The translations under genes and the position numbers were made by a program. A model generated the notes under the pieces. It had not been told where the DNA came from. It made no database searches and saw nothing but the letters and a program-made list of their open reading frames with translations. From Tenacibaculum dicentrarchi (GTDB lineage: Bacteria; Bacteroidota; Bacteroidia; Flavobacteriales; Flavobacteriaceae), in assembly GCF_964036635.1 (NCBI RefSeq), contig NZ_OZ038524.1:911501-975500 (forward strand): a stretch of DNA of 64,000 nucleotides. Direction: 5' to 3'. Of this stretch, positions 5,558-57,444 are shown one piece after another. Numbering within the stretch: position 1 is the stretch's first letter; each line of letters begins with the position of its first letter.

Positions 5558-5642
5558 CTAGCCCCGATTGAAGCTTTGTTTGAGCTCCTTTTTGTTTTTT
5601 TCAAACAAAAAGAGCGAGTGCGGAAAGCGGGAAATAGCTTCA
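5558..5642 (+). repeat. Covarying hairpin element, family A copy 1
   Basis: It begins CTAGCCCCGATTGAAGC, continues with TTGTTTGAGCTC, and ends with GCGAGTGCGGAAAGCGGG plus AAATAGCTTC. Between these fixed flanks lies an apical stem, here TTTTTGTTT paired with AAACAAAAA. Five other clear copies (9188, 19599, 22182, 49680, 57353) keep the flanks and change the stem in a compensatory way. No coding frame is present. Confidence 0.9.
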
Positions 5643-5676
5643 AAAAAAAATCCTAAGCTATAAACTTAGGATTTTG
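5643..5676 (-). terminator. Terminator of guaD
   Basis: On the minus strand AATCCTAAG pairs with CTTAGGATT around TTTATAG and is followed by a run of T. It starts within a few bases of the guaD stop codon and abuts repeat A copy 1. Confidence 0.8.
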
Positions 5677-5679
5677 ATA

Positions 5680-6153
5680 TTAATATTCAACTTTATCTTG
5701 TTTTTCTGTCCATTTTTCAAACGGCTCTAAGGCAATTTTTTGCCCTATTTGCTCAAAAGAAATGCTACGCTTTTCGTAAGGTAATGCAATTTCTTTGTAA
5801 ATAAAAGCATCGTCAAAACCAATATTTGCGGCATCTTGCTGGTCACATCCGTAGTACACTTTGTCTGGTCTTGCCCAGTAAATTGCGCCTAAACACATCG
5901 GGCAAGGCTCGCAAGAAGTGTAAATAATACAACCGTCTAATTGAAAAGAACCAAGGTTTTTACAGGCATCTCTAATTGCTGTAACTTCGGCGTGAGCTGT
6001 TGGGTCGTTGGTCGAAGTAACCTTATTATTTCCGCTACCAATAACCACACCGTCTTTTACTACGATACAGCCAAAAGGACCACCTTCATTGTTACTCATT
6101 CCTTTTAAAGCGGCTTTAACAGCTTCACTCATATGTTTTTCGTGTTCGTTCAT
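5680..6153 (-). CDS. guaD: Guanine deaminase (cytidine-deaminase-fold type)
   Basis: A zinc hydrolase that converts guanine to xanthine in purine salvage. The 157-residue protein has the deaminase zinc motifs HAE (54-56) and CEPCPMC (C81, C84) after DPTAHAEVTAIRDACK. Its C-terminal part (CDQQDAANIGFDDAFIYKEI) closely follows Bacillus subtilis GuaD, a domain-swapped dimer, rather than the tRNA adenosine deaminase TadA. A TadA-like activity remains the main alternative. It is monocistronic with its own terminator. Confidence 0.88.
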   Translation of the reverse strand: MNEHEKHMSEAVKAALKGMSNNEGGPFGCIVVKDGVVIGSGNNKVTSTNDPTAHAEVTAIRDACKNLGSFQLDGCIIYTSCEPCPMCLGAIYWARPDKVYYGCDQQDAANIGFDDAFIYKEIALPYEKRSISFEQIGQKIALEPFEKWTEKQDKVEY

Positions 6154-6241
6154 TATTTTTGGTTTTAGGGGGCAAAAATCACTGCCTAATTTAAGTGATT
6201 TAGCATATTTAATTAATAAAAAAAAGTAAAATATTTAAGTA

Positions 6242-7108
6242 TTATTCTTTAGCTCCGTGACTTTTAGCAGTTTCAATCCAATGTTCGGATAATCCTTTTG
6301 TATCGGCTCTTAAACCTCTTGATAAATGCAAAGCTACGGCAATTATTAAAACCGAAGCCTGATGAAGTTCTTCAAATGTTTGTAGGCTTCCGAACTCTTC
6401 TTGTGCTTTTAAAAGTAGAAAATCGTTGTGTTTTTGAGCGAAAGTAACAGGATTATTTTCGTGATTTGTTATATTTGGAATCATTAAATAATCTAGCCAT
6501 TTTTTACCGATTCTTTCTGCTAATACTTGCGGGTTTTCGTTACCGATTTCTCTCCAAGCAGCCAGTGTTTTTGTGTCACCAGAAGCTGATAATCCTGAAT
6601 CTAAAAGTAGTTCAAAACCAATATCAGCAATGTTTTGCATCACCATTAAATAAGCATCTAGTGCTTTTTCATATTCTCCTGCTTTTTGTCCTTTTAAATA
6701 TTCGCCTACACTAAGTTTAGGTAAGTCTAATACTTCAGCACAATCTGTTAAGCACGGAAAAGCATTTCCTTCGTAAATATATTCGGCTTTTTCAAATTGT
6801 ACTTGACGACCTAACGGATATAAACGACACGCTAACGGACGCCCAAGATGTACGCTACAACCAGCATTGTCTAAATATTGGCTACATGATTTCTGTCCTT
6901 TTTTATCGGTTTTTCCATCAAAAAGTAATTGGATACCGCCAAATTCGGTATAAAGATTTCTGAATTTTTTTGTTGTAATTTTTTTCTCTTGACTAAAACT
7001 AAATAATTCCCACGGATTCAGCATTACATCTTTTCCAAAACAACACGACCCTGAGCGTGAGCAGGTAAGCGGTAATATACTTTCTGAATTTAGTTTTGTT
7101 ACTTGCAT
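6242..7108 (-). CDS. YkgJ-type cysteine-cluster protein
   Basis: A 288-residue cytoplasmic protein of the YkgJ/CxxCxxCC family, thought to bind a metal, zinc or an iron-sulfur cluster. Cysteines are visible at 16, 22 and 23 (CSRSGSCC), then 75, 84 and 94 (CSQYLDNAGC and RPLACRLYPLG). The remaining 190 residues are helical with no recognised catalytic motif. Function is unknown; older annotations call it an Fe-S oxidoreductase without proof. A TATTTTTG -7 box on the minus strand (7173-7180) lies about 65 bases upstream of its start, so it is probably transcribed alone. Confidence 0.8.
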   Translation of the reverse strand: MQVTKLNSESILPLTCSRSGSCCFGKDVMLNPWELFSFSQEKKITTKKFRNLYTEFGGIQLLFDGKTDKKGQKSCSQYLDNAGCSVHLGRPLACRLYPLGRQVQFEKAEYIYEGNAFPCLTDCAEVLDLPKLSVGEYLKGQKAGEYEKALDAYLMVMQNIADIGFELLLDSGLSASGDTKTLAAWREIGNENPQVLAERIGKKWLDYLMIPNITNHENNPVTFAQKHNDFLLLKAQEEFGSLQTFEELHQASVLIIAVALHLSRGLRADTKGLSEHWIETAKSHGAKE

Positions 7109-7193
7109 TTTGTATGTTTTATTTTAAAAATGAATGGTTGAAAATGAGTACTAGCTGTTTTTATAGCGGGGGCAAAAATAAGATTTAAAAAAC

Positions 7194-7230
7194 AAAAATC
7201 CCTACAATTATAAATTGTAGGGATTTTTTT
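7194..7230 (-). terminator. Terminator downstream of fumC
   Basis: AAATCCCTACAATT pairs with AATTGTAGGGATTT around a TATA loop, with A and T runs at both ends. It could act in either direction; fumC is the gene that reads into it, although repeat D copy 1 lies between. Confidence 0.7.
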
Positions 7231-7240
7231 AAGTTTAATA

Positions 7241-7365
7241 AGAGCTTGTTTAAATTTTATCTGAAAAAAAACATCACATCCGTCAACCTTAATTTATTTT
7301 AGGTTCGCATCCTGATTTGCTGTAGTTCTTCTGTTAATGCGATGCTGAAATAAATTCAGCATGAC
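7241..7365 (+). repeat. Interspersed structured repeat, family D copy 1
   Basis: A 125-base element with head AGAGCTTGTTTAAATTTTAT, then CACATCCGTCAACC, a local hairpin around AATTTATTTTAGG, CGCATCCTGATTTGC, and a terminal hairpin GCTGAAATAAATTCAGC ending ATGAC. Copy 3 (21991-22109) is full length, copy 2 (19481-19554) lacks the head, and copy 4 (9491-9579) lacks the tail. It lies between fumC and its likely terminator, so it is probably part of the fumC 3' UTR. Confidence 0.85.
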
Positions 7366-7388
7366 ATTTATATCTAATAAAAAAAAGC

Positions 7389-8789
7389 TTATTTTAAAGC
7401 ACCAATCATTTCTTCAGGTTTTACCCATTCGTCATATTCAGCTTCAGTTACATAACCTAAACGAACAGCTTCAGTTTTTAAAGTAGTTCCGTTTTCGTGT
7501 GCAGTATTTGCAATTTCAGCAGCTTTATAATATCCGATTTTTGTATTTAATGCAGTAACTAACATTAAAGAATTGTTTACTAATTCAGTAATTCTAGTAT
7601 GATTTGGCTCAATACCAGCCGCACAATTTACATCGAAAGATACACAAGCATCTCCAATTAATTGAGCAGATTCTAATACATTTTTCGCCATCATTGGTTT
7701 AAAAACGTTTAATTCGTAATGACCTTGCGTACCACCAATAGTAACAGCAACATCATTACCCATAACTTGCGCACAAACCATAGTAATTGCTTCTGCTTGC
7801 GTAGGATTTACTTTTCCAGGCATAATAGAAGAACCTGGTTCGTTTGCAGGAATAATTAATTCACCAATACCAGAACGAGGACCAGAAGCCATCATACGAA
7901 TATCGTTGGCTATTTTATTGATAGAAACCGCTAATTGCTTTAAAGAACCATGAGTTTCAACAAAAGCATCATGAGCCGCTAAAGCTTCAAATTTGTTTTC
8001 GGCAGTAATAAAAGGTAAACCTGTAAATTCAGCAATATATTTAGCAACTAAAACATCGTAACCAGCTGGAGTATTCAACCCTGTACCAACAGCAGTTCCA
8101 CCTAAAGCTAATTGCGATAAATGCTCTAAAGAATTTTTTAAAGCTTTTAATCCGAAGTTTAATTGTGCTACATAACCAGAAAATTCTTGACCTAAAGTTA
8201 GGGGAGTAGCATCCATTAAATGCGTACGTCCAATTTTTACAACGTCTTTAAACGCTTCTGATTTTGCTTGTAAAGTATCACGTAATTGTTCAACTCCAGG
8301 AATGGTAACTTCTACAATTTTCTTGTAAGCAGCAATGTGCATTCCTGTAGGAAAAGTATCGTTTGATGATTGCGATTTGTTTACATCATCATTTGGTTGA
8401 ATAGTTTTTTCACCTTCACCAATAACTTTACCTGCAATTTCGTGAGCTCTGTTAGCAATTACTTCGTTACAGTTCATGTTACTTTGCGTACCAGAACCTG
8501 TTTGCCAAATTACTAACGGAAATTGATCATCATGTTTACTTGCTAAAATTTCATCACAAACTTGTGCAATTAAATCTCTTTTTTCGATTGCTAAAACACC
8601 TAATTCTGCATTTGTATATGCTGCAGCTTTTTTAAGATACGCAAAACCATATACAATCTCTAAAGGCATTGAGCCAGCAGGACCTATTTTAAAGTTGTTA
8701 CGAGAACGCTCTGTTTGCGCTCCCCAATATTTATCCGCAGGAACTTCAACATTTCCCATGGTATCTTTTTCAATTCTGTACTTTGCCAT
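7389..8789 (-). CDS. fumC: Fumarate hydratase class II
   Basis: An iron-independent fumarase of the TCA cycle that interconverts fumarate and malate. Its 466 residues match the homotetrameric class II family. [36 protein letters not shown] and the superfamily signature [16 protein letters not shown] carry the active-site residues. A clean ATG at 8789 gives the typical N-terminus [17 protein letters not shown]. It is transcribed alone, divergent from a small membrane-protein gene. Confidence 0.97.
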
Positions 8790-8827
8790 TTTAAAATTAT
8801 TTAAAAGAATATAATTTAACTTACCTC

Positions 8828-8835
8828 CAAATTTA
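8828..8835 (-). promoter_or_regulatory. Putative -7 box of fumC
   Basis: TAAATTTG on the minus strand fits the Bacteroidota -7 consensus TANNTTTG and lies about 38 bases upstream of the fumC ATG. A good -33 TTTG at the right spacing is not seen. Confidence 0.5.
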
Positions 8836-8877
8836 CAAATTCTTATAGGTTTTAGTAGTGATTTTTGTCATATTTTA

Positions 8878-8908
8878 TTGGATAAAAAGAAAAATAGTTC
8901 TAATTTTG
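8878..8908 (+). promoter_or_regulatory. Putative promoter of the small membrane protein
   Basis: TTG at 8878-8880 is separated by 20 bases from TAATTTTG at 8901-8908, close to the Bacteroidota pattern TTTG-N17-19-TANNTTTG. The ATG follows 27 bases downstream. Confidence 0.55.
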
Positions 8909-8935
8909 CTCTATAACAATTATTACAGAAAACAA

Positions 8936-9109
8936 ATGTTAGATTTTTCACAATTTTCAGGATTAGTATTATTCATGTTTATTTTTACAACTGGTTTTTG
9001 GTTGTTAATTTTCTTATTAACATTTGTTGTTCCTTATTGGATTGGTGGAACAATTTTAGAAAACTTGAAATTGAAAAAAGAAGCTAAAAAAGCCGCTCAA
9101 GGTAACTAA
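8936..9109 (+). CDS. Small membrane protein, 57 residues
   Basis: It starts at ATG 8936 (MLDFSQFSGL). A longer in-frame start at 8858 would add a basic stretch and would begin upstream of the -7 box at 8901, so I reject it. The protein is hydrophobic through residues 10-37 (one or two membrane passes) and ends in a short charged tail, KLKKEAKKAAQGN, which should face the cytoplasm. I do not recognise a named family. A promoter box upstream and a strong terminator 26 bases downstream argue that it is a real single gene. Confidence 0.72.
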   Translation: MLDFSQFSGLVLFMFIFTTGFWLLIFLLTFVVPYWIGGTILENLKLKKEAKKAAQGN

Positions 9110-9134
9110 GCTTTTCCTTAGGAAATATATACAT

Positions 9135-9168
9135 AAAAGCTCGTTCATTTATTTGAACGAGCTTTTTG
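9135..9168 (+). terminator. Terminator of the small membrane protein gene
   Basis: AAAAGCTCGTTCA pairs with TGAACGAGCTTTTT around TTTATT, followed by T. The stem is perfect over 12 pairs. Confidence 0.88.
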
Positions 9169-9187
9169 TTGTACGTAGTATTTTATT

Positions 9188-9281
9188 TGAAGCAATTTTC
9201 CCGCTTTCTGCACTCGCTTTTTTTATTTTTTTGAAAAGAAAAATAAAAAAGAGCTCAAACAAAGCTTCAATCGGGGCTAGG
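9188..9281 (-). repeat. Covarying hairpin element, family A copy 2
   Basis: Read on the minus strand it has the family flanks CTAGCCCCGATTGAAGC and GCGAGTGCAGAAAGCGGG. The apical stem is TTTTTTATTTTT against AAAAATAAAAAA, with an A-T pair where copy 1 has G-C. It opens the 677-base gene-free block 9110-9786. Confidence 0.9.
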
Positions 9282-9336
9282 CAGTTTTACTAAAAATTTG
9301 TTTTTTCACTAAGAGCTTGTTTAAAAATTAAATAAA

Positions 9337-9474
9337 CTGTCAGTTCGAGTGATTTTTTTTCTTCAAAAAAATTGTATCGAGAACTTTTTTGTATAAAATT
9401 CATCAACATAAAACAATTCAAATTCTCGATACAATTTTAATTCCTTTTAGTCATTAAAATCACTCGAATTGACA
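9337..9474 (+). repeat. Interspersed inverted-repeat element, family B copy 2
   Basis: CTGTCAGTTCGAGTGATTTT at the left and AAAATCACTCGAATTGAC at the right are inverted. The inner arms are ATTGTATCGAGAA and TTCTCGATACAAT. It is close to the reverse complement of copy 1 (4288-4412); only the AT-rich centre differs in length and sequence. Confidence 0.85.
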
Positions 9475-9490
9475 AGAATCATCAAAAAAA

Positions 9491-9579
9491 AGGAGAACTA
9501 CTGCAAATCAGTTTGACGGATGCGGTTTTTTGTTTTTCTGTTACATTTTTTTTAAAAATGAAATTTAAACAGGCTCTAA
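9491..9579 (-). repeat. Family D copy 4, deleted form
   Basis: On the minus strand it reads AGAGCCTGTTTAAATTTCAT, an AT-rich spacer, CCGCATCCGTCAAACTGAT and TTGCAGTAGTTCTCC. The local hairpin and terminal hairpin of the full element are missing. Confidence 0.65.
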
Positions 9580-9611
9580 GTTTTTTAAGCTGATAATTTA
9601 TTTGAATATTT

Positions 9612-9644
9612 AGACCTCACAGGTTTTAGAAACTTGTGAGGTCT
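9612..9644. repeat. Short palindromic repeat, family C copy 2
   Basis: AGACCTCACAGGTTT / AAACTTGTGAGGTCT form an imperfect palindrome; it is the counterpart of 5467-5500. Confidence 0.78.
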
Positions 9645-9683
9645 GTCCTCGAATTGATAAAAATCATTAAAAAACTAAGAATT

Positions 9684-9780
9684 GCGTTAGGGATTGAATG
9701 GCATGTTTGAGCTCTTTTAGTTTGGTGCTTTTTTGCACCAAACTAAAAAGCGAGTAATGAAAGCCCGCTCGAACGCCCAA
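9684..9780 (+). repeat. Diverged hairpin element related to family A
   Basis: It begins GCGTTAGGGATTGAATGGC and keeps the internal TTTGAGCTCTTTT and AAAAGCGAG of family A. Its other flank is different: TAATGAAAGCCCGCTCGAACG. The apical stem is TAGTTTGGTGC against GCACCAAACTA, an almost perfect 11-base arm unlike any A copy. It ends a few bases from the stop of the downstream barrel gene, on that gene's 3' side. Confidence 0.7.
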
Positions 9781-9786
9781 AAAAAA

Positions 9787-12240: not shown

Positions 12241-12324
12241 TGCGTATTTAATTGATTAAATTTTGATAAGACAACTAATTTATTTAAAGGTTTAAAAACA
12301 AATTGTTAAATAAATGTTAAAGTA

Positions 12325-12351
12325 AAAAAGGTCGCATTTAGCGACCTTTTA
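12325..12351 (-). terminator. Terminator of yidC
   Basis: AAAAGGTCGC pairs perfectly with GCGACCTTTT around ATTTA, about 20 bases past the yidC stop on the minus strand. Confidence 0.8.
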
Positions 12352-12372
12352 AGTTATTTAAAAATAAAAATA

Positions 12373-14244: not shown

Positions 14245-14410
14245 TGATATGTGTTATAAATGATGACAACTTGTCATTATTTTTTTCTGATAATTTAAAA
14301 ATAGCAGAAAAATAAGACAAGTTTAGTAAAACCGAATCGTTTTTATGAGGTTTTACCGTTATTAATTTTAATAAGGATATTCGCTCAAAGAATGTTCCAT
14401 ATGTATTAAA

Positions 14411-19480: not shown

Positions 19481-19554
19481 TTTTATTTCAGGTTCGCATC
19501 CTGATTTGCCGTAGTTCTTCTGTTGATGCGATGCTAAAATAAATTCAGCATGAC
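19481..19554 (+). repeat. Family D copy 2, head-deleted
   Basis: Starts at TTTTATTTCAGGTTCGCATC and runs through CTGATTTGCCGTAGTTCTTC to GCTAAAATAAATTCAGCATGAC. The head and CATCCGTCAA segment are absent; the carB terminator lies where they should be. This and family A copy 3 fill the 326-base gap 19424-19749. Confidence 0.8.
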
Positions 19555-19598
19555 GTTTATTGGTGTTTCTGTAATAAACAGGAATATAGCACTTGATT

Positions 19599-19692
19599 CT
19601 AGCCCCGATTGAAGCAATTGTTTGAGCTCTTTTTTGTTTTTTTTTTTCAAAAAAATAAAAAAAGCGAGTGCGAAAAGCGGGAAATAGCTCCA
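19599..19692 (+). repeat. Covarying hairpin element, family A copy 3
   Basis: Flanks CTAGCCCCGATTGAAGC and AGCGAGTGCGAAAAGCGGG are kept. The apical stem is TTTTTTGTTTTTTT against AAAAAAATAAAAAA, giving a G-T wobble at the position that is G-C or A-T in other copies. Confidence 0.9.
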
Positions 19693-19749
19693 AAAAAACT
19701 TCGAAAGTTATAAAAAAATCAAGGTTTTTAATTCTTTATGTATTTTAAA

Positions 19750-21990: not shown

Positions 21991-22109
21991 CGTTTAAATT
22001 TCATCTAAAAAATAGCATCGAATCCGTCAATCTGAATTTATTTCAGATTCGCATTCTGATTTGCCGTAATTCTCTTGTTGATGCGATGCTGAACTAAATT
22101 AAGCAAGAC
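21991..22109 (+). repeat. Interspersed structured repeat, family D copy 3
   Basis: Complete copy. AGCATCG near the start pairs with CGATGCT near the end, and the inner hairpin AATCTGAA / TTCAGATT is perfect. Copy 1 has AACC / GGTT at the same place, so a base pair has changed on both sides. It begins within ten bases of the GlmU-like stop codon and lies between it and its terminator, so it is probably transcribed as 3' UTR. Confidence 0.85.
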
Positions 22110-22133
22110 GAAAATAGATAAGATATTTAAAAT

Positions 22134-22170: not shown

Positions 22171-22181
22171 TAATTATTTTT

Positions 22182-22266
22182 TGAAGCAATTTCCCGCTTT
22201 CCGCACTCGCTTTTTTTTGAAGAAAAATCAAAAAAAGAGCTCAAACAAAGCTTCAATCGGGGCTAG
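22182..22266 (-). repeat. Covarying hairpin element, family A copy 4
   Basis: Minus-strand copy with family flanks. The apical stem is shorter, TTTTTTTGA against TTCAAAAAAA, a stem sequence different from other copies but still paired. It fills most of the remaining gap before the DUF6495 gene. Confidence 0.9.
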
Positions 22267-22356
22267 GCGATTTTGCTAAAAAATAATATTTATTTTATCA
22301 TTTATAATTCTGATATTAAAATTGTCAAAACCCTAAATTATTATTAAAATTGCCGA

Positions 22357-40199: not shown

Positions 40200-40207
40200 T
40201 ACATTTG
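40200..40207 (+). promoter_or_regulatory. -7 box upstream of the cobalamin riboswitch
   Basis: TACATTTG matches TANNTTTG and is placed just before the riboswitch, so the transcript would begin with the aptamer. No good -33 TTTG is seen. Confidence 0.55.
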
Positions 40208-40214
40208 CCGAAAA

Positions 40215-40392
40215 TTTAGGTTTTGATGTTTAAAAACATAACATCAAATTAAAAGGGAATTCGGTTAAATACCGAAGCTGTTCCCGCAACTGTAAGCTAG
40301 AAAGCTTGTAATAATTCTTTAGTCACTGTTTTTTAGAAATGGGAAGACCAATTACAAGACGCAAGCCAGGAGACCTGCCTATATTTTAAATA
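40215..40392 (+). promoter_or_regulatory. Cobalamin (B12) riboswitch
   Basis: Conserved elements occur in order: GGTTTTGATGTT near the P1/P2 side, AAAAGGGAATTCGGT, GAAGCTGTTCCCGCAACTGT, GTCACTG, ATGGGAAGACC and the B12 box GCAAGCCAGGAGACCTGCC. This is the full adenosyl/methylcobalamin aptamer. It precedes the BtuB-like receptor by about 37 bases, so it should repress B12 uptake when cobamide is plentiful. No intrinsic terminator hairpin is obvious after it, so control of translation initiation is the likelier mode (inference). It fills most of the 340-base gap between cobU and the receptor gene. Confidence 0.95.
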
Positions 40393-40428
40393 ATTCAAAC
40401 TTTCGGGATAAAGGTTTTTAATATATTT

Positions 40429-42330
40429 ATGAAAAAACACGTACTTTTTATATTATTTTTTATACTGGCATTTTCTTGCTTTGCTCAAAAAGATTCGATT
40501 TCGAATGTTTTAGAGGAAGTGGTAGTTGTTGGAAATAAAAAAATAGCTCCTAAAAAAATACGTGTAAAATCCATAAAAATAGGCATAAAACAACAAGTTA
40601 AAAACCCTATTAATTTCACCAATCTTTTACGATATAACAGCCCAATTTCCTTTAGAGATTATGGAAACGGGGGTGTAAGTACGGCTCGTTTTAGAGGAAC
40701 TTCGGCTTCGAATACTTTGGTACTTTGGAATGGAATCCCGATTAATTCGGTTGGTAGCGGTCAAACCGATTTTAATGCCTTATCTGCTAATATTAGCGAT
40801 ATTGTAACTGTTCAAAGTGGCGGAAATAGTACCGATTTTGGCTCGGGAGCTATCGGCGGAACGGTGCATTTAAACGATGAAATAAATTTTACGAAACATC
40901 AAAAAATCCATATTTTTTCTTCTTTTGGAAGTTTTAATACAAGTTCTAACTTTTTTAAAAGTGCTTTTGCTGATAAAAAATGGAGCGTAAAATTGGCTTC
41001 TACATTTAATTATTCTGATAATAATTATACCTTTATCGATAAGCGATATAAAGATGAAAATGGGCGTTTATTGAAAAATAAAAATGGAAACTATAAAAAT
41101 TATGGCGTTAATTTTAATATCGCGCATCAATTTAATTCAAAAAATAAACTCGCTTTTTATACCACAAAATATTACGGAAATCGGTTGTTTTCCGATGGAT
41201 TACCAAATCCATCAGCAGGAAGTGAACGCAATGAAGATTTTAACCAACGCAATTTATTACAGTGGAACTATAAGTATTCATCTGAATTTAAACAGCTACT
41301 AAGTATTGCTTATTTAACCCAAGAATATCACTATTATACCAATAAAAATGCTATCGATTTTAGTTTTGGAAAATCGCAAACGACACATATCAATTATAAT
41401 CTGACTTATAAACCTTCGAATATTTTATCTTTTAATTATAAAACTGTTTTTGAAAACATCAATGGGAATATCAAAGAGAATATGATTGGAGATAATTCAA
41501 AAATAACTAAAAAAAGAAATTCAATCGCTTTTATCGGAAGTGTAAAATATCAGCCTTTAAAAAAAGTTAAAACAAGTTTTCAGCTAAGAAAAGAACTTAA
41601 TTCAGATTTTAACGTGCCTGTTTCTGTATTTGTAGCAGGTGAATATAAAATAGCTTCAAAAGTAAATTTTTCAGCGAATTTCTCTACCAATTACAGAGTG
41701 CCAACGTATAACGAAATGTATTGGCCGATAGTAGGAAACTTACATTTAGTAGCAGAAAATTCGGTTCAAGGAGAAGCGGGTGTTTCTTTTAAAAATAAAA
41801 ATATAGAGTTAAAATCAACAGCATTTTATATTCATATAAATGATAAAATTTTATGGCTGCCCGCTGGAAATAGTAATTTATGGCGACCAAAAAATGTAAA
41901 TGATGTAGTTCATAAAGGAATAGAATCGTTTATCAGTTTTCAAAAAAAAATAGCAGAACATCGATTTGCTATTTCATCGAATTACACGTTTACAACGGCT
42001 GAAAATATCGAAAATAATAAAATTTTGCCATATGCTCCAAAGCATTTATGGAATTTTACTGCCGATTATTCTTATAAAAAAATTAGTATTTTTCTACAGA
42101 GTTTATATCAAAGTAAAGTATATACCAACGAAATAAATTTAGATTTTTATTCGCTCAAAAAAGTAAACGTACAAAATATAGGACTTAATTTTAAGTTATC
42201 AACAACAAAAATAAACCTTCCTATAATTGGGCTAACTGTTAATAATATATTTAACAAAGTGTATTATTTCTCAAATTTACGCCCGATGCCTGGAACAAAT
42301 TTTAATATTAATATCAACTATAAATTTTAA
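40429..42330 (+). CDS. TonB-dependent outer-membrane receptor, BtuB-like
   Basis: 633 residues: signal peptide 1-20 (ending FSCFAQ), a TonB-box-like stretch VLEEVVVVGNKK, a plug domain (about 45-155, with TARFRGTSASNTLVLWNGIP and DFGSGAIGGTVHL) and a 22-strand-size barrel ending in aromatic NINYKF. There is no carboxypeptidase-like extension. The B12 riboswitch just upstream and cob genes on the other strand make cobalamin the inferred substrate. The next gene, four bases later, is a surface-type lipoprotein and presumably its partner. Confidence 0.9.
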   Translation: MKKHVLFILFFILAFSCFAQKDSISNVLEEVVVVGNKKIAPKKIRVKSIKIGIKQQVKNPINFTNLLRYNSPISFRDYGNGGVSTARFRGTSASNTLVLWNGIPINSVGSGQTDFNALSANISDIVTVQSGGNSTDFGSGAIGGTVHLNDEINFTKHQKIHIFSSFGSFNTSSNFFKSAFADKKWSVKLASTFNYSDNNYTFIDKRYKDENGRLLKNKNGNYKNYGVNFNIAHQFNSKNKLAFYTTKYYGNRLFSDGLPNPSAGSERNEDFNQRNLLQWNYKYSSEFKQLLSIAYLTQEYHYYTNKNAIDFSFGKSQTTHINYNLTYKPSNILSFNYKTVFENINGNIKENMIGDNSKITKKRNSIAFIGSVKYQPLKKVKTSFQLRKELNSDFNVPVSVFVAGEYKIASKVNFSANFSTNYRVPTYNEMYWPIVGNLHLVAENSVQGEAGVSFKNKNIELKSTAFYIHINDKILWLPAGNSNLWRPKNVNDVVHKGIESFISFQKKIAEHRFAISSNYTFTTAENIENNKILPYAPKHLWNFTADYSYKKISIFLQSLYQSKVYTNEINLDFYSLKKVNVQNIGLNFKLSTTKINLPIIGLTVNNIFNKVYYFSNLRPMPGTNFNININYKF

Positions 42331-49599: not shown

Positions 49600-49602
49600 T
49601 AA

Positions 49603-49668: not shown

Positions 49669-49679
49669 CAACGGATGTT

Positions 49680-49771
49680 TAGCCCCGATTGTAGCAATTG
49701 TTTGAGCTCTTTTTTGTTTTTTCCTTTAAAAAAACAAAAAAAGCGAGTGCGGAAAGCGGGAAATAGCTCCA
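49680..49771 (+). repeat. Covarying hairpin element, family A copy 5
   Basis: TAGCCCCGATTGTAGC (one change from the consensus GAAGC) and AGCGAGTGCGGAAAGCGGG flank an apical stem TTTTTTGTTTTTT against AAAAAACAAAAAA with a G-C pair. It lies between convergent genes in the 278-base gap 49600-49877. Confidence 0.9.
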
Positions 49772-49822
49772 AATAATTCTTCTAAATAGTCGATGAAAAA
49801 CCTTATTTTAAAATAATTTAAC

Positions 49823-49857
49823 AAAAAAACAACCCTTAAAAAGAGTTGCTTTTTTAT
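49823..49857 (-). terminator. Terminator of gcvT
   Basis: On the minus strand AGCAACTCTT pairs with AAGGGTTGTT (one mismatch) around TTTA, followed by T. Confidence 0.75.
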
Positions 49858-49877
49858 ATATATATGATAAAATTTTC

Positions 49878-50960
49878 TTATCCTTTGTAAAAAGGTAATT
49901 TAACCACTTTTGCAGCTAATTGTTTTTTACGAACTTGAATAAAAATATCAGAATTTAATTTTGAATTTTCTTTAGTAACGTATCCTAAACCAATTCCTTT
50001 GCCTAAAGAAGGACTCATTGTTCCAGAAGTAACACGACCAATTACAGTACCTTCAGCATCAACTATTTCATAGTCATGACGAGGAATACCACGCTCTGTT
50101 AATTCAAAAGCAACTAATTTTTTAGTAACACCAGCTTCTTTTTGAGCCTTTAACGCTTGAGAATTTACAAAGTCTTTTGTGAATTTAGTAATCCAACCTA
50201 AACCAGCTTCTAAAGGAGAAGTTGTGTCATCGATATCGTTACCATATAAACAATAACCCATTTCTAAACGTAAAGTATCACGAGCTGCTAAACCGATTGG
50301 TTTAATATTCCAGTCTGCACCAGCTTCAAAAACTTTTTTCCAAAGTTGCTCTACATCTTTGTTTTTTACATAAATTTCAAATCCACCAGAACCTGTGTAC
50401 CCCGTTGCCGAAATAACAACGTTAGGAATCCCTGCAAAATCAGCAATTTCAAAGGTGTAAAATTTAATGGTTGATAAATTTACAGCTGTTAACGACTGCA
50501 TAGCTTCTACAGCTTTTGGTCCTTGAATAGCTAATAAAGACCAGTCATCAGAACGGTTTTCCATAGTAACATTTAAGTCATTATGGCTAGCAATCCAATT
50601 CCAATCTTTTTCAATGTTAGATGCGTTTACAACTAACATATACTCGTTTTCAGCAATCATGTAAATAATTAAATCATCTACAATTCCGCCATCAGCATTT
50701 GGCATACAGCTATATTGCGCTTTACCAGGAACTAATTTTGAAGCATCGTTTGTGGTTACTTTTTGAATTAAAGCTAAGGCATTTTCTCCTTTTAAGAAAA
50801 ATTCTCCCATGTGACTTACATCAAAAACACCAACGCCTTTTCTAACCGTTTCGTGTTCTATATTGATTCCTTCGTATTGTACAGGCATGTTATAACCCGC
50901 AAAAGGAACTATTTTTGCTCCTAAAGCTTCGTGAATATGTGTTAATGCAGTATTTTTCAT
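49878..50960 (-). CDS. gcvT: Glycine cleavage system T protein (aminomethyltransferase)
   Basis: 360 residues, full length. It transfers the methylene of the H-protein-bound aminomethyl group to tetrahydrofolate. Recognisable stretches: [18 protein letters not shown] at the start, [11 protein letters not shown], the folate-contact [12 protein letters not shown], and [16 protein letters not shown]. The C-terminal barrel has [20 protein letters not shown]. gcvP and gcvH are not beside it. No glycine riboswitch is seen in the 225 bases upstream. Confidence 0.97.
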
Positions 50961-51185
50961 TCTAAAATTTTTTATTTAAAAGTATATGCTAAAATATTGA
51001 AAAATGACAAATAAATAACCTTATTTTGGTTAATGTTTTAATGAATTATTACCTAAAAATGTGTTGATATTGTTTTGTAAAAATAAGAAGTGAAGTTAAG
51101 CTGATTAAAGTAAGAAGGTTATTAGATGAATTAATCAAATAGAACCTTTATTTTTGTTTTTTTAGATAAAATTACGAGTCAAAAT

Positions 51186-51404
51186 ATGAGCCAAGAACAA
51201 CCAAATAATCCGCTTCACGGAATAAAATTAGCGACCATTTTAGAAGAATTATACTTAGAATATGGCTGGGAAGAGTTAGGAGAAATTTTAAATATTAATT
51301 GTTTTAAAAATAATCCTACTTATAAATCGAGTTTGAAATTTTTAAGAACAACACCTTGGGCAAGAACCAAAGTAGAGAATTTTTATTTGAAATTTATTCG
51401 TTAA
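51186..51404 (+). CDS. VF530 (DUF2132) family DNA-binding-like protein
   Basis: 72 residues, the complete length of the VF530 family. It has [34 protein letters not shown] and the hallmark [20 protein letters not shown]. Structures of the family show a small helical fold with DNA-binding resemblance, but the role is unknown. TATTTTTG at 51149-51156 is a plausible -7 box. Immediately downstream is the hairpin of repeat E, which may act as its terminator. Confidence 0.88.
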
Positions 51405-51424
51405 ATTTATTTATAAAAATATGG

Positions 51425-51567
51425 TATGGTAGAGACGCGATTTATCGCGTCTTTTATTATAATTTATTTTAAAATTCTTCAACGTATTTCTGAATTTATT
51501 TCAGCATTGCATTTACTTCAGATTTTTAGCAACAGATAAAGACACGATAAATCGGCGTCTCTATGAT
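51425..51567. repeat. MITE-like element with 27-base terminal inverted repeats, family E
   Basis: The left end GGTAGAGACGCGATTTATCG (then CGTCTTT) and right end AAAGACACGATAAATCGGCG (then TCTCTATGAT) are inverted copies with two or three differences. Each end is itself a small palindrome (GACGCGATTTATCGCGTC). The 85 bases between them include CTGAATTTATTTCAG, a piece like the family D hairpins. No coding frame. It fills half of the 293-base gap before priA. Confidence 0.75.
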
Positions 51568-51623
51568 ATATATCTGTTAAAAAAAGGCATAAAACCCCGT
51601 GCTAAAATTTAATATTTTTTTTG

Positions 51624-51631
51624 TAATTTTG
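51624..51631 (+). promoter_or_regulatory. Putative -7 box of priA
   Basis: TAATTTTG fits TANNTTTG, 66 bases before the priA ATG. The -33 side is T-rich but has no clear TTTG. Confidence 0.45.
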
Positions 51632-51697
51632 ATATTATCCATTTTAGTGAATTTCATTAAATAGATATTTTCAACCGAAAAATCACTAAAATTTATC

Positions 51698-54139
51698 ATG
51701 TATTTTATCGACGTTATATTACCTATTCCATTACAAAAAACATTTACATATTGTGTAAATAAAGCCGAATTTTCGTTTCTTAAAAAAGGAATGCGAGTGG
51801 CGGTTTCTTTTGGGAAAAGTAAAATTTATACAGCACTTGTTTTTGATATTCATCAAAATGCACCTGAATCGTATAAAGCAAAAGATATTCATCAAATTTT
51901 AGATGAATTTCCTATTGTAAACGAACGTCAATTAAAGCATTGGCAATGGATTTCGAGCTATTATATGTGTTCGTTAGGCGATGTTTATAGAGCTTCGTTA
52001 CCGTCGGCTTTTATGCTAGAAAGTGAAACAATTATCTATAAAAATGACACTTTTACCGATGAAACTATTTTAACTGATGATGAATTTTTAATTTTTGAAG
52101 CCCTTCAAAATAGTTCACAACTTACAATTCATGAAGTTGCAAATATCATCAGTAAAAAAACAACTTTACCAATTATTGATTCTCTAATTCAGAAAGAAGT
52201 CGCTTTTATCAAAGAAGAAATTTATGAAACCTATAAACCAAAATTAGTAAAATTTGTTCGTTTAAATGCTGTTTATGAATCGAATGAAGCCCTTCAAAAA
52301 TTATTAGAAAATTTATCAAGAGCAAAAAAACAACGGGAAGCATTGCTTACTTATTTTCAATTAGCAAGTAGTAAAAAACCAATAAAAGCAAAAGAATTAG
52401 AAGAGAAATCAGGCGTTTCATCAGCAATATTAAAAGCCTTGGTTGATAAAGAAATTTTTGAGTTTTATCAAATTCAAACCGATAGAATTAATTTTGAAGG
52501 AGAAACCAATCAAATTAAAGAATTAAACGATTTTCAAACACAATCTTTTAATGAAATTAAAACATCTTTTGAAACTCAAAATGTAACCTTATTACACGGG
52601 GTTACAGGTTCAGGGAAAACAGAAATTTATGTAAAACTGATAAAAGAAGTTGTTGCAGAAGGAAAACAAGTATTGTTTTTATTGCCCGAAATAGCATTAA
52701 CAACACAAATAATTAGTAGATTAGAACGTTATTTTGGCGATTTTATATCTGTTTTTCATTCAAAATATTCCATGAATGAGCGGGTAGAAGTTTGGAATAA
52801 CGTGTTAGAAAATAAGCCAAAAGCACAGATAATTTTAGGCGCTCGTTCGGCTGGTTTTTTACCATTTTCAAACTTAGGATTAATTGTAATTGATGAAGAG
52901 CATGAAACTTCGTACAAACAATTTGAACCATCACCACGCTATAATGCCCGCGATTCGGCAATTGTTTTAGGACATTTACACAAGGCAAAAGTATTGTTAG
53001 GTTCGGCAACGCCATCGTTAGAAAGTTATTTTAATGCCAAGCAAAATAAATATGGTTTTGTTGAATTAACCCGTCGTTTTGGAAACATTCAACTGCCAAA
53101 AATCGAACTGATTGATATCAAAGAAAAATATCGAAAAAAGCAAATGAAAGGGCATTTTTCCGATAGGTTATTAACCATGATTACCGATGCTTTGGAGCAA
53201 AAAGAACAGGTTATTTTATTTCAAAACAGGCGTGGTTTTTCTCCCGTTGTAGAATGTGATACTTGTGGTATTTCACCAGAATGCCCAAATTGTGATGTGA
53301 GTTTAACATTTCATAAATTTAGGCGAGAATTAAAATGTCATTATTGTAGCTACCAACGTGCGATGCCTAATAATTGCGGGGCTTGTGGAAGTACAACACT
53401 TGATACAAAAGGCTTTGGAACAGAGCAAATTGAGCTAGAACTAAAAACTTTATTTCCTGATTATAACATCGGAAGAATGGATTTAGATACCACACGTGGA
53501 AAATACGGCTATCAAAAAATAATTGGAGCCTTTGAGGCACAAGAAATTGATATTTTAGTAGGAACACAAATGTTATCGAAAGGCTTGGATTTTGAAAATG
53601 TATCGTTAGTGGGGATTTTAAGTGCCGATTCGATGTTAAATTTCCCCGATTTTAGAGCCCACGAAAGAGCGTATCAGTTAATGGTTCAGGTGTCGGGTAG
53701 AGCAGGACGTAGCAAAAAACAAGGAAATGTTGCGATACAAACCTACAATCCGAATCATCAAATATTACAGCAAGTTTCGACCACTAATTACGCCGAAATG
53801 TATAAAGAACAATTGCAGGAACGTTGGAATTTTAAGTATCCACCATATTATAAATTGATTAAAATTACGCTAAAACATAAAGACCCTGTTCGTGTAGAAA
53901 TGGGTGTAAATTGGTTAGTGAAATCATTGCAAAATGTGTTTGCGCAAAATGTATTAGGACCTACAACGCCTGCCGTATCTCGTGTTCGAAATTTATATAT
54001 TAAAAATTTAGTAATTAAAATTCCGCCAAAACAATCGTTAGGAAAAACAAAAGAACAAATTATTAGGGTTAAAAATTCTTTTGAAAGTGTGAAAGATTTT
54101 AGGTCGATTCGTTTTATTATGGATGTAGATGCGTATTAA
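51698..54139 (+). CDS. priA: Primosomal replication-restart helicase PriA
   Basis: 813 residues. The N-terminal DNA-fork-binding domain (YFIDVILPIPLQKTFTYCV) leads into a superfamily 2 helicase. Walker A is GVTGSGKT at 301-308 and Walker B is DEEH at 399-402. The zinc-binding insertion CDTCGISPECPNC / CHYCSYQRAMPNNCGACG has eight cysteines. It reloads the replisome at stalled forks. The stop codon overlaps the stop of the convergent SDR gene by four bases, leaving no room for a terminator. Confidence 0.96.
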   Translation: MYFIDVILPIPLQKTFTYCVNKAEFSFLKKGMRVAVSFGKSKIYTALVFDIHQNAPESYKAKDIHQILDEFPIVNERQLKHWQWISSYYMCSLGDVYRASLPSAFMLESETIIYKNDTFTDETILTDDEFLIFEALQNSSQLTIHEVANIISKKTTLPIIDSLIQKEVAFIKEEIYETYKPKLVKFVRLNAVYESNEALQKLLENLSRAKKQREALLTYFQLASSKKPIKAKELEEKSGVSSAILKALVDKEIFEFYQIQTDRINFEGETNQIKELNDFQTQSFNEIKTSFETQNVTLLHGVTGSGKTEIYVKLIKEVVAEGKQVLFLLPEIALTTQIISRLERYFGDFISVFHSKYSMNERVEVWNNVLENKPKAQIILGARSAGFLPFSNLGLIVIDEEHETSYKQFEPSPRYNARDSAIVLGHLHKAKVLLGSATPSLESYFNAKQNKYGFVELTRRFGNIQLPKIELIDIKEKYRKKQMKGHFSDRLLTMITDALEQKEQVILFQNRRGFSPVVECDTCGISPECPNCDVSLTFHKFRRELKCHYCSYQRAMPNNCGACGSTTLDTKGFGTEQIELELKTLFPDYNIGRMDLDTTRGKYGYQKIIGAFEAQEIDILVGTQMLSKGLDFENVSLVGILSADSMLNFPDFRAHERAYQLMVQVSGRAGRSKKQGNVAIQTYNPNHQILQQVSTTNYAEMYKEQLQERWNFKYPPYYKLIKITLKHKDPVRVEMGVNWLVKSLQNVFAQNVLGPTTPAVSRVRNLYIKNLVIKIPPKQSLGKTKEQIIRVKNSFESVKDFRSIRFIMDVDAY

Positions 54140-54882
54140 ATATTCCGAATATCAAAAATAACGCCACTTTTTAATTGATTTTCAGTATCAATTTTATAAA
54201 TAGTATCGGCAACAAAACTAGGCGTGTATAATTTATTTTGATTTTTTAAATCGATAAAACGTTGTAGATTTTTAAAATCATTTTTGTGAGTATTTCTGAT
54301 TTTAGTTTGCATATCTGTAGCAACAACACCAGGGTAAATAGCGATACATTTTACGCCATTTTGAAGTTCGGCTTGTTCTAAGGCTATGGTTTTTGTTAGC
54401 ATATTCAAACCAGCTTTTGAGGTACAATACACGCTCCAGCCTTCATACGGTTTTTTAGATGCTCCTGATGAAATATTGATAATTTGTTTTTTACAAGCTA
54501 GATGTGGTGTTTTTTTGATAAATAATCCTGATAAAATAAGTGGCGTAGTAATATTTAATTGCATAGATTTTGCAATATCATTGGCTTCTAAGTTTTCTAA
54601 ATGGGCTATTTTACCTAAACGCCCAGCGTTATTAATTAAGGTAATTGACGTTATTTTAGAAGTTGAATTTTGATGGATAATTTTATCTAAAAGAGCCGTA
54701 AAAATAGTTTGAGTTGCTATGCTATCAGCTAAATCAACTTTAATATTTTGTATATTTTTTATTTCTGAAATTTCAGAAGAAGTTCTAGCTAATGAAAAAA
54801 CGGTGTAATTTTCAGAAGCATATTTTTGAGTCAATGCCTTTCCAATACCTTTGCTTCCGCCTGTAATTATGATGATATTCAT
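54136..54882 (-). CDS. Short-chain dehydrogenase/reductase
   Basis: 248 residues of the classical SDR fold: nucleotide-binding TGGSKGIGKAL at the N-terminus, NNAGRLGKI, the catalytic Ser in NISSGASKKP, and YCTSKAG with the Tyr-x-x-x-Lys pair. NADPH preference is likely from the Arg in SLARTSSE, but the substrate is unknown; benzil- or sepiapterin-reductase-like enzymes have this overall look. It is the last gene of a minus-strand row from ruvX, 36 bases after mazG. Confidence 0.88.
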   Translation of the reverse strand: MNIIIITGGSKGIGKALTQKYASENYTVFSLARTSSEISEIKNIQNIKVDLADSIATQTIFTALLDKIIHQNSTSKITSITLINNAGRLGKIAHLENLEANDIAKSMQLNITTPLILSGLFIKKTPHLACKKQIINISSGASKKPYEGWSVYCTSKAGLNMLTKTIALEQAELQNGVKCIAIYPGVVATDMQTKIRNTHKNDFKNLQRFIDLKNQNKLYTPSFVADTIYKIDTENQLKSGVIFDIRNI

Positions 54883-54918
54883 GAAAAAAATAAGAAAAAT
54901 GAAAAATACTAGCGAATT

Positions 54919-55734
54919 TTACTCAAAAAAATCTTTTGATTTTTCCCAATAAGTATTCATTTCGTTTAAAGTCATATCAGAAATTTCTTTGCCTTGTTTT
55001 TTGGCTTCTTCTTCTAAATATTGAAAACGATTGATAAATTTTTTATTCGTTTTTTCTAAGGCATTTTCAGGATTTACTTTCATCAAATTTGCGTAATTAA
55101 TCAGTGAAAATAACACATCGCCAAACTCTTTTTCGATGTTTTTATGATTATCAGCTTGATTGTTGTTTTTATTATCGCCTTTATTTTTGATGTTTATTTC
55201 TTGGTTTAATTCCTGAATTTCTTCTTGAATTTTTTCCCAAGCTTGCTCAGGTTTTTCCCATTTAAAACCAACACCAGCAACTTTTTCTTGGATTCTACTA
55301 GCTTTTACCAAAGCAGGTAAACTCTTTGGAACACCTTCTAAAACAGAAGTTTTTCCTTCTTTTAGCTTTAATTTTTCCCAATTTCGTTTTACTTCTTCTT
55401 CATCTTTAACCACCACATCGCTATAAATATGCGGATGACGATGAATTAATTTATCACAAATTGAATTGGCGACATCAGCAATATCAAACGCTTTTTTTTC
55501 GCTACCAATTTTAGCATAAAAGACGATGTGTAATAACACATCGCCTAATTCTTTTTTAACCTCTTCTAAATCATTGTCTAGAATGGCATCTGCTAATTCG
55601 TAAGTTTCTTCAATCGTTAAATGACGCAAACTCTCTAAAGTTTGTTTTTTATCCCACGGACATTGCTCTCGAAGTTCGTCCATAATGTCTAACAAACGGT
55701 TAAAAGCGTCTAATTGTTGCTTACGAGTATTCAT
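54919..55734 (-). CDS. mazG: Nucleoside triphosphate pyrophosphohydrolase MazG
   Basis: 271 residues with two MazG repeats. The first has EETYELADAI (42-51) and KKELGDVL (60-67); the second has EEIQEL (171-176) and EKEFGD (201-206). These acidic motifs bind magnesium and hydrolyse dNTPs and NTPs to monophosphates. In the second repeat a low-complexity Asn/Lys/Asp stretch (about 180-200, NIKNKGDNKNNNQADN) separates the two motifs and looks like a species-level insertion. It starts four bases after the DUF5606 gene. Confidence 0.93.
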   Translation of the reverse strand: MNTRKQQLDAFNRLLDIMDELREQCPWDKKQTLESLRHLTIEETYELADAILDNDLEEVKKELGDVLLHIVFYAKIGSEKKAFDIADVANSICDKLIHRHPHIYSDVVVKDEEEVKRNWEKLKLKEGKTSVLEGVPKSLPALVKASRIQEKVAGVGFKWEKPEQAWEKIQEEIQELNQEINIKNKGDNKNNNQADNHKNIEKEFGDVLFSLINYANLMKVNPENALEKTNKKFINRFQYLEEEAKKQGKEISDMTLNEMNTYWEKSKDFFE

Positions 55735-55737
55735 AAT

Positions 55738-56157
55738 TTATTTAGCTTCTTCTGTTGTTGCTACTTTCTCTAAGGTTTTGAAATCAAAACCAGCTGCAGC
55801 TAAAGTATTATACCACTGAATTACCTTTTTAATGTTAGAAGCATATACACGTTCTTTGTCGAAACCTGGTAAAACTTCTTCAAAATAAGCCATTAAAGTA
55901 TCGTTACTTTCTTTATGAGAAAGTGCATCTTTACCTTCTTGTTTTTCATCCATAGTTTTAAGTATGATTGCTAAAGGCACTTCTTCTTCGTAAGTATAAA
56001 TAGCAATGTTTTCTAATAAACTTACATTGTGAGTTGCTGCAATAGGAAAACGTTTACCGTCAACAATTGAACGAACGATTACTCCTGTTTTTGTTTGAGA
56101 GATAATTTCAAATAATCCTGGTTTCCCAGTAACTGCTATAACTTTGTTAAATTCCAT
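55738..56157 (-). CDS. DUF5606 family protein
   Basis: 139 residues, cytoplasmic. FNKVIAVTGKPGLFEIISQT and GVIVRSIVDGKRFPIAATHN form an SH3-like beta start; a helical C-terminus follows. The family is confined to Bacteroidota and its function is unknown. Its position between def and mazG in one row suggests a housekeeping role. Confidence 0.82.
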   Translation of the reverse strand: MEFNKVIAVTGKPGLFEIISQTKTGVIVRSIVDGKRFPIAATHNVSLLENIAIYTYEEEVPLAIILKTMDEKQEGKDALSHKESNDTLMAYFEEVLPGFDKERVYASNIKKVIQWYNTLAAAGFDFKTLEKVATTEEAK

Positions 56158-56190
56158 ATTATGGTGTTTTTAGTGTCTTTATATAAAAGA

Positions 56191-56778
56191 CTATTTTTTC
56201 TTGGCATTAGGAAAACGCATTCTGTAACCTGCGTCTACTTTTCCTTTAGAAATATTTTCTAATTTCTTTTTAATCAAGCGTTTTTTTAAGGTCGATAATT
56301 TATCAGTAAATAAAACACCATCAATATGATCGTATTCATGCTGAAAAACACGTGCCGCTAAACCGCTTAAAACTTTGGTGTGTTTGTCAAAATTTTCATC
56401 TTGATATTCAATAGTAATGGTTTCTTGACGAAAAACATCTTCACGAACATTAGGAATACTTAAACAACCTTCGTTAAAAGCCCATTCTTCACCTTCTTCT
56501 TTAATGATTTTTGCATTTATAAATACATGATTAAAGTTTTCTAAGGCTTTTCTGTCTTCTTCGGATAAATCTTCATCATCAGCAAAAGGTGACGCATCGA
56601 TTAAAAATAAACGAATGTCTTTACCAATTTGCGGTGCTGCCAACCCGACACCTTGCGCATTGTACATTGTTTCTTTCATATTCGCAATTAATTTTTCTAA
56701 CTGCGGATAATCTTTATCGATTTCTGTTCCTACTTTACGTAATACGGGATCTCCGTAAGCAACAATGGGTAAAATCAT
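56191..56778 (-). CDS. def: Peptide deformylase
   Basis: 195 residues. Removes the formyl group from nascent N-termini. All three family motifs are present: GVGLAAPQIG, EGCLSIP with the metal-ligand Cys, and HEYDHIDG with the two metal-ligand His and the catalytic Glu. A Bacteroidota-type insertion of about 15 acidic residues (FADDEDLSEEDRKAL) lies between the first two. It is 55 bases after ruvX. Confidence 0.96.
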   Translation of the reverse strand: MILPIVAYGDPVLRKVGTEIDKDYPQLEKLIANMKETMYNAQGVGLAAPQIGKDIRLFLIDASPFADDEDLSEEDRKALENFNHVFINAKIIKEEGEEWAFNEGCLSIPNVREDVFRQETITIEYQDENFDKHTKVLSGLAARVFQHEYDHIDGVLFTDKLSTLKKRLIKKKLENISKGKVDAGYRMRFPNAKKK

Positions 56779-56833
56779 GTGTTTTTAAATTTTTTAAGGT
56801 TACGAAAATACAAAGAATGGTTTATGTATGAAA

Positions 56834-57244
56834 TTATTTATTGTATAAATACGACTGTAAGATGATTGTAGCGCTTATTTCATCGACTAAAGCCTTGTTT
56901 TGACGTTGTTTTTTGTTGAGTCCGCTATCAATCATGGTTTGAAACGCCATTTTTGAGGTAAAACGTTCGTCTTCTCTTTTGATAGGAATGTTAGGTATTG
57001 ATTTTGCTAATTTTTCTAAAAAAGGAAGTATCAAGGCTTCACTTTGGCTGTCGGAATTATCCATTTGCTTGGGTTTTCCAATGATAAATAATGCTACATT
57101 TTCTTTTTTTATGTAGTCTTTTAAAAAAGATATTAATTCTTTTGTATTAACTGTCGTTAATCCTGATGCAATAATTTGTAATTCATCAGTAACTGCAATT
57201 CCTGTTCTTTTTTTACCAAAATCGATGGCTAAAACTCGTCCCAA
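56834..57244 (-). CDS. ruvX: RuvX/YqgF-family Holliday-junction resolvase-like nuclease
   Basis: 136 residues with an RNase-H-like fold: VLAIDFGKKRTGIAVTD at the N-terminus, FIIGKPKQMDNSDS in the middle, and EDERFTSKMAF with C-terminal LVDEISATIILQSYL. In E. coli YqgF takes part in 16S rRNA maturation, so resolvase activity is only one of its proposed roles. First gene of the minus-strand row ruvX-def-DUF5606-mazG-SDR. Confidence 0.92.
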   Translation of the reverse strand: MGRVLAIDFGKKRTGIAVTDELQIIASGLTTVNTKELISFLKDYIKKENVALFIIGKPKQMDNSDSQSEALILPFLEKLAKSIPNIPIKREDERFTSKMAFQTMIDSGLNKKQRQNKALVDEISATIILQSYLYNK

Positions 57245-57352
57245 ATGTTTTTATTTTTTACAAAAATAAAGTTTTAAACCTTTATAAATTGTACTTCTAT
57301 TGTTTTTTAAATAATAAATAGTGTTAAAATTTTTAAATAGATGCAAAAATGC

Positions 57353-57444
57353 CTAGCCCCGATTGAAGCATTTGTTTGAGCTCTTTTTTATTTTTCTTTT
57401 TGAAAAAATAAAAAAAGCGAGTGCGAAAAGCGGGAAATTGCTTC
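57353..57444 (+). repeat. Covarying hairpin element, family A copy 6
   Basis: CTAGCCCCGATTGAAGC and AGCGAGTGCGAAAAGCGGG flank the stem TTTTTTATTTTT / AAAAATAAAAAA. It is the only copy between two divergent genes (ruvX and dapD), so it sits in a promoter region, about 100 bases upstream of the dapD -7 box. The rest of the 330-base gap is plain AT-rich sequence. Confidence 0.9.

Follow-up and report, generated by a model that had tools for sequence, protein, structure and literature searches.

Integron attC sites and the ends of IS200/IS605 elements are recognised as the folded single-stranded DNA of one strand, in which certain unpaired bases are fixed. The flavobacteria include G. forsetii. 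This species is among those positive for repetitive extragenic palindromes (REPs) of the CGTC type in passages of PMC3733652, according to which REPs of the GTAG type go with RAYT and those of the CGTC type seem to be without a dedicated transposase. Flavo-1 (RF01705), described as an RNA by Weinberg 2010 (PMC2864571), is an already known family: a passage of a 2022 review places it among the most abundant small-RNA (sRNA) families, by computational homology only (PMC9029176), and neither a function nor a REP-like reading is given for it in the passages of PMC9723704, PMC2864571, PMC9029176, PMC5561996 and PMC3733652 concerned, a scope that leaves most subscription literature outside. Here we show that six hairpins dispersed over a 64,000-nt stretch of the Tenacibaculum dicentrarchi genome (contig NZ_OZ038524.1, positions 911,501 to 975,500; hereafter the window) are members of Flavo-1, and that the shape of their stem is clearly under selection. 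Like REPs, Flavo-1 is a short extragenic hairpin in many copies, with at least 121 matches in the host genome (a single contig of 2,808,268 bases). Between a structured RNA and a dispersed DNA element, we lean to the latter.

The original prediction had placed six copies of one hairpin in the window and suggested Flavo-1 as a family for comparison. All six were recovered on the predicted strands, both by a search for their flanks and by a covariance-model scan of the window with Rfam, in which every copy exceeded the RF01705 gathering score of 42 bits (44.7-54.9 bits, model positions 1-76, full length) and no further Flavo-1 appeared down to E = 1. With up to three mismatches, both flanks were found six times each, against chance expectations of 0.00 for the 3′ flank and 0.11 for the 5′ flank. 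The predicted places were right, while the start coordinates fell one base early (5558 precedes TAGCCCC, which begins at 5559). The copies are as follows.

5556..5646, plus strand: Flavo-1 copy 1, 54.9 bits, match 5556-5638; core strands at 5563-5574 and 5620-5631, followed by the conserved tail AAATAGCTTC
9185..9282, minus strand: Flavo-1 copy 2, 44.7 bits, match 9193-9282 plus tail
19597..19696, plus strand: Flavo-1 copy 3, 47.7 bits, match 19597-19688 plus tail; arm with a G-T pair
22178..22268, minus strand: Flavo-1 copy 4, 49.4 bits, match 22186-22268 plus tail; commonest arm type (35 of 112 arms in the host genome)
49677..49775, plus strand: Flavo-1 copy 5, 47.3 bits, match 49677-49767 plus tail
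57351..57449, plus strand: Flavo-1 copy 6, 46.7 bits, match 57351-57441 plus tail

The stem pairs tested below are those of the Rfam model. The main type in the host genome differs from that model in its loop module (GTTTGAGCTC / GCGAGT), and the window copies score lower than the best copies in other species, which reach 81-85 bits. The predicted variation of one arm pair was also as described, being G-C in copies 1 and 5, A-T in copies 2 and 6 and G-T in copy 3; copy 4 carries another arm.

For host-wide comparison, 125 copies were extracted, comprising the 121 matches, three copies from a pattern search (118 matches, about 100 of them listed) and a chimeric copy at 1312236; the 117 with both anchors were used to define the anatomy of the element, and 8 were dropped. 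Conserved sequence reaches from near -12, counted back from TAGCCC, to near +16 past the last GGG. Outside these limits only weak A/T richness was seen, and therefore no promoter lies at a fixed distance. The element, of about 100-105 bases, consists of a 5′ lead with weak conservation, a 12 x 12 lower stem, a loop module with an AT-rich apical arm of varying length above this core, and a conserved tail, GGAAATWGCTYC, below it. The two 12-base strands of the core, CCCGATTGAAGC and GCGGAAAGCGGG, form one stem with outer pairs 0-3, an A-G mismatch at 4, pairs 5-6, mismatches at 7-9 (G-A, N-G and A-G) and inner pairs 10-11; pairs 1-3, 5, 6, 10 and 11 coincide with the printed Rfam model. Unlike REPs, Flavo-1 is long (about 100 bases), has a long variable arm and occurs as single copies, and neither GTAG nor CGTC is present at either end, which read TAGC... 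and ...GGAAATWGCTYC. In some species, GC-richer or long sequence lies between the stem strands in place of the AT-rich arm (L276, L270, L298 and L299).

Selection on a fold, which had been proposed from six copies, is supported far beyond what those six can show. Column pairs were ranked by corrected mutual information over 140 distinct elements of other genomes (861 column pairs, in a ranking that takes no account of the tree), and model pairs 2, 6, 10 and 11 took ranks 1-4, with pair 1 seventh. Four states, T-A, C-G, A-T and G-C, are found at pair 2; pair 10 occurs mostly as G-C and A-T, and pair 11 mostly as T-A and C-G. Pair counts were made on 123 host copies and 72 elements from other genomes, after an anchor rule had dropped 9 of 204 (7 from other genomes, 2 from the host), and on a named set of 81 elements from 80 named loci among at least 120 stretches from a 3′ pattern scan. 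Pair 6, found as T-A, A-T, G-C and C-G, was Watson-Crick in 72/72 elements of other genomes and 79/81 of the named set. The A-G mismatch was kept in 123/123 host copies, 71/72 of the others and 81/81 of the named set, and the G-A mismatch in 122/123, 72/72 and 72/81, respectively. The anchor rules partly require letters at positions 0, 1, 3, 4, 5, 7, 8 and 9, and further 3′ letters are fixed in the named set, so invariance at those positions is favoured by the way copies were selected; pairs 2, 6, 10 and 11 are not among the anchors. As the two mismatches are nearly fixed while their neighbours covary, a specific shape is maintained. That the covariation comes solely from template switching, which corrects imperfect palindromes, was rejected by reasoning, since such a process would have removed the A-G and G-A mismatches as well; it may act on the apical arms.

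The pseudoknot helix GAAGC/GCTTC, another element of the original prediction, was not borne out. Its five positions form standard pairs in 67/76, 20/76, 72/76, 93/140 and 113/140 elements, the high counts among these arising because the letters hardly vary, and they rank only 120th-819th of 861. The helix is present in the lowest-energy folds of copy 1, yet shows no covariation, and single-sequence folding is therefore misleading here. Wobble pairs bear on the strand that folds. In counts that ignore kinship, G-T and A-C numbered 0 and 1 in pairs 0-3, 0 and 1 in pairs 5-6, and 11 and 2 in pairs 10-11 of the 140 distinct elements; among distinct apical arms, the numbers were 8 and 0 in other genomes and 7 and 4 in the host. 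This excess suggests that it is the written strand that folds, and not both strands as a cruciform would require. As G-T is the milder mismatch in DNA also, it leaves the choice between RNA and DNA unsettled.

The host genome contains at least 121 Flavo-1 matches, 113 of them over the cut-off when 150 of 826 candidates were scored; this is a lower bound, since two further copies turned up at about 2,262,700 and 2,782,380. The 121 copies show no strand bias (57 plus, 64 minus) and near-random spacing (coefficient of variation 1.15; random 0.84-1.17), with none of the 121 listed gaps shorter than 1 kb where 5 were expected. One stretch free of listed copies covers 242 kb (1602351-1844818; chance about 0.002). 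In a 10-kb sample of it, one gene carried HTH_38 and integrase core domains, and a GIY-YIG gene and a DUF6934 gene were also present, on account of which this region may be younger. Only 2 of the 125 copies lie inside an open reading frame (ORF) called by a simple ORF caller. Among 117 scored copies, 41 lie in convergent, 59 in co-directional and 17 in divergent gaps, compared with 16, 62 and 42 of 120 copy-free gaps (excess in convergent gaps, Fisher p 1.2e-4; shortage in divergent gaps, Fisher p 2.9e-4). All copies had been predicted to lie outside operons; this cannot be upheld, given the 59 co-directional cases in the genome and the three in the window (5556, 9193 and 22186, the others being convergent at 19597 and 49677 and divergent at 57351). 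Orientation to genes is mixed, with the upstream neighbour in sense at 64/117 copies and the downstream neighbour in antisense at 77/117. At one ribosomal RNA (rRNA) operon, viewed at its two ends, a copy precedes 16S and another follows 5S, the 5′ sides of both facing the operon. Among 145 elements of other genomes, with 424 ORFs, no neighbouring gene recurred (the largest protein cluster covered 4 loci), and no transposase recurred beside the copies as it would at insertion-sequence (IS) ends.

A termination site had also been proposed, and a simple scan found 112 of 125 copies not to be terminator-like on either strand. By the same kind of scan, another terminator-like site was present in 32/40 convergent gaps with Flavo-1 and 18/23 without, and the intrinsic terminator was discarded as an explanation. 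Other repeats occur nearby. A different repeat of about 150 bases lies near Flavo-1 at window positions 4275-4424 and 9324-9490, with more copies by other host Flavo-1 sites. The palindrome CGTCATGCTGAATTTATTTCAGCA is found at 7343-7366, 19532-19555, 22087-22110 and 51483-51506 (up to three mismatches, 0 expected), two of the four within 100 bases of a Flavo-1 copy; as a guess, they could be CGTC REPs as described in PMC3733652. Elsewhere in the window, a cobalamin riboswitch (116.5 bits) occupies 40201-40396 on the plus strand, upstream of the ORF at 40429.

Copy number across the genus Tenacibaculum is patchy. Matches were found in 49 of 58 genomes, from none to at least 67 per genome, and 6 of the 9 genomes with no match are among the 45 near-complete ones; an order-level survey of Flavobacteriales gave matches in 133/296 genomes. 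Genome G018 carries 135 copies, largely collinear with those of the host by a rough spacing match, including two less than 1 kb apart (148815 and 149602 on contig C7). The host is 98.2-99.6% identical to T. dicentrarchi TDCHD05 (G354) over long aligned loci (L324, L382, L388, L394, L400 and L406), one 822-base piece giving 95.5%. The synteny match to TDCHD05 is rough, with 85 chained of the 100 listed among its 112 copies and some chains sharing host sites; the search pattern used there recovers 111 of the 125 extracted host copies. An identical copy in T. finnmarkense was dropped as a case of horizontal transfer, the host itself being a Tenacibaculum.

Between species, conservation is higher in the elements than in their flanks: in 23 orthologous pairs, 1911/1968 element positions were identical (24 gap columns), against 2336/2633 (254 gap columns) in two 60-base flanking windows each, some of which have been replaced rather than diverged. 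In 4 of the 23 pairs (L168, L181, L196 and L179), the whole apical arm was exchanged for a type that other copies carry, with stem and tail unaltered, and in L184 and L185 the outermost arm pair changed between C-G and T-A. Gene conversion among copies would produce switches of this kind. They also imply that the arm differences among the window copies may be largely block swaps rather than independent point changes.

No clean new insertion or empty site was seen among the minority of sites compared in sequence with G018 and TDCHD05. Seven apparent differences between the host and TDCHD05 resolved into four copies present in both, one IS-like insertion in an arm and two replaced intervals. The insertion lies in the AT-rich arm of the TDCHD05 orthologue of copy 2 (L415; window 9193-9282), and its reading frames resemble a split-frame IS1-type transposase. 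In G018, detailed alignment of two sites showed replaced sequence. At about 51406-51670 the window carries a different hairpin (GACGCGATTTATCGCGTC) at the place of an additional Flavo-1 of G018; distinct repeats may take each other's place within a single intergenic slot. As for a vehicle, none was seen: plasmid and phage records gave no match to one 121-base query and IMG/VR none to two strict patterns, searches that divergent copies could escape.

A second form of the element has the outer end GCGTTAGGGATTG ... AAAGCCC ... AACGCCC, and occurs with variants at host positions 756753, 776046, 1037825, 1930232, 2099775 and 2181566. Across all loci collected, 50 distinct candidates were picked for complementary P1 triplets; 39 of these have a 5-base P0 arm with a perfect downstream complement (GCGTT/AACGC in 34, GCATT/AATGC in 2, GCGTG/CACGC in 2 and GCACT/AGTGC in 1), and 11 have none. 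The host copies at 1312236 and about 2,782,380 join a second-form outer end to a Tenacibaculum inner arm and are thus chimeras, the latter identical in TDCHD05. In low-copy genomes (24 loci, the best one or two of each genome), the motif of the second-form outer end is present in 20, that of the other form in 3 and neither in 1. Both neighbours were available for 22 loci in these genomes, and 18 lie between co-directional ORFs, 10 in sense and 8 in antisense; several sites share both neighbours across species (L203/L209/L211, L208/L225, L210/L227 and L206/L226).

We tentatively favour, with the balance of doubt slightly against it, a REP-like reading of Flavo-1: a dispersed element that an enzyme acting in trans multiplied in the distant past, and whose copies are now fixed and kept alike through recombination. 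The sense strand of a non-autonomous extragenic hairpin would fold and be recognised by an enzyme, other than a Y1/RAYT of the host genome, that spread the element early in this Tenacibaculum clade; the copies would now be mostly stationary and vertically inherited, and their observed exchange of apical arms would reflect recombination. Consistent with this reading are the many extragenic copies in a patchy distribution, the rarity in divergent gaps and excess in convergent ones, the lack of fixed orientation, promoter distance or recurrent neighbour, the nearly fixed mismatches beside covarying pairs, the arm swaps and chimeras, and the excess conservation over the flanks. In F. psychrophilum, too, a passage of PMC9723704 reports Flavo-1 matches indistinctly sense or antisense to transcribed regions, many of them in none. 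Several points weigh on the other side. The mobilising enzyme was not found, and neither was a clean insertion, an empty site or a vehicle in the searches above; old copies are strongly conserved, which suggests that they still have a function; the recurrence of the same operon sites in several low-copy species looks more like function than fossil; and the wobble asymmetry fits RNA also. Unlike IS200/IS605 ends and attC sites, Flavo-1 has no recombinase found here and no transposase recurring beside its copies. The original prediction had named a RAYT-like enzyme as reader of the hairpin, and a true REP mobilised by a Y1/RAYT transposase has the right overall look (a mismatched hairpin with a conserved tail), agrees with the general description of REPs in passages of PMC3733652, and could draw on the Y1 domain PF01797, matched in 26/46 genus genomes. 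PF01797 has 0 matches in the host genome, however, and does not track Flavo-1 copy number in those 46 genomes: copy-rich G001, G008, G021, G029 and G053 lack it, and zero-copy G002, G003, G025 and G035 have at least one. With neither GTAG nor CGTC at the ends, this possibility is the slightest of those considered, and Y1/RAYT mobilisation is largely refuted.

The main rival to the REP-like reading is a role at the RNA level, in which a cis-acting hairpin, lying in 3′ untranslated regions or intercistronic RNA and binding a nuclease or another protein, would set messenger RNA stability or processing, as some REPs do. This is possible but doubtful. The excess of sense-strand wobbles in P2 (pairs 10-11) and in the apical arms, the 18 of 22 low-copy loci between co-directional ORFs, several at one site in different species, and the conservation above that of the flanks all suit it, and in F. 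psychrophilum Flavo-1 matches coincide with several 5′ transcribed regions, according to a passage of PMC9723704. The mixed orientation in the host and the near-even split of the 18 low-copy operon sites argue against it, as does the lack of any G-T in 840 cells of the outer pairs and pairs 5-6, most of which hardly vary; with RNA parameters, two window copies fold with unremarkable energy (z -0.74 and -0.65), whereas DNA parameters gave z -2.41 for copy 1. A site organising the chromosome or its replication (nucleoid, segregation or recombination), improbable in our judgement, would account for copies spread over most of the chromosome, for the absence of listed gaps below 1 kb and for the two copies bracketing an rRNA operon; it accords poorly with the 9 of 58 genus genomes with no match, the absence of strand bias, the otherwise near-random spacing with its 242-kb copy-free stretch, and the close pair in G018. 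More improbable still is an independent sRNA gene, as implied by the Rfam type 'Gene; sRNA' and by the family's rank among abundant sRNAs: no promoter position is conserved, the copies exceed 120, and the F. psychrophilum transcription passage of PMC9723704 is mixed to negative. We do not favour the label 'sRNA gene'.

Returning to the REP-like reading, a bolder and rather doubtful version of it would make Flavo-1 a new kind of dispersed hairpin instead of an sRNA family. A non-Y1 enzyme would recognise its sense strand as folded single-stranded DNA, recombination of whole arms and even outer ends would homogenise the more than 100 copies in each genome, and the arms would serve as interchangeable cassettes on a fixed stem. 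If Flavo-1 is a REP-like DNA element, its sRNA annotations mislead, and a mobilising or binding protein awaits discovery; if it is an RNA element, very many flavobacterial transcripts bear one structured site. Under either reading, the fixed mismatches and covarying pairs mark the bases to mutate.

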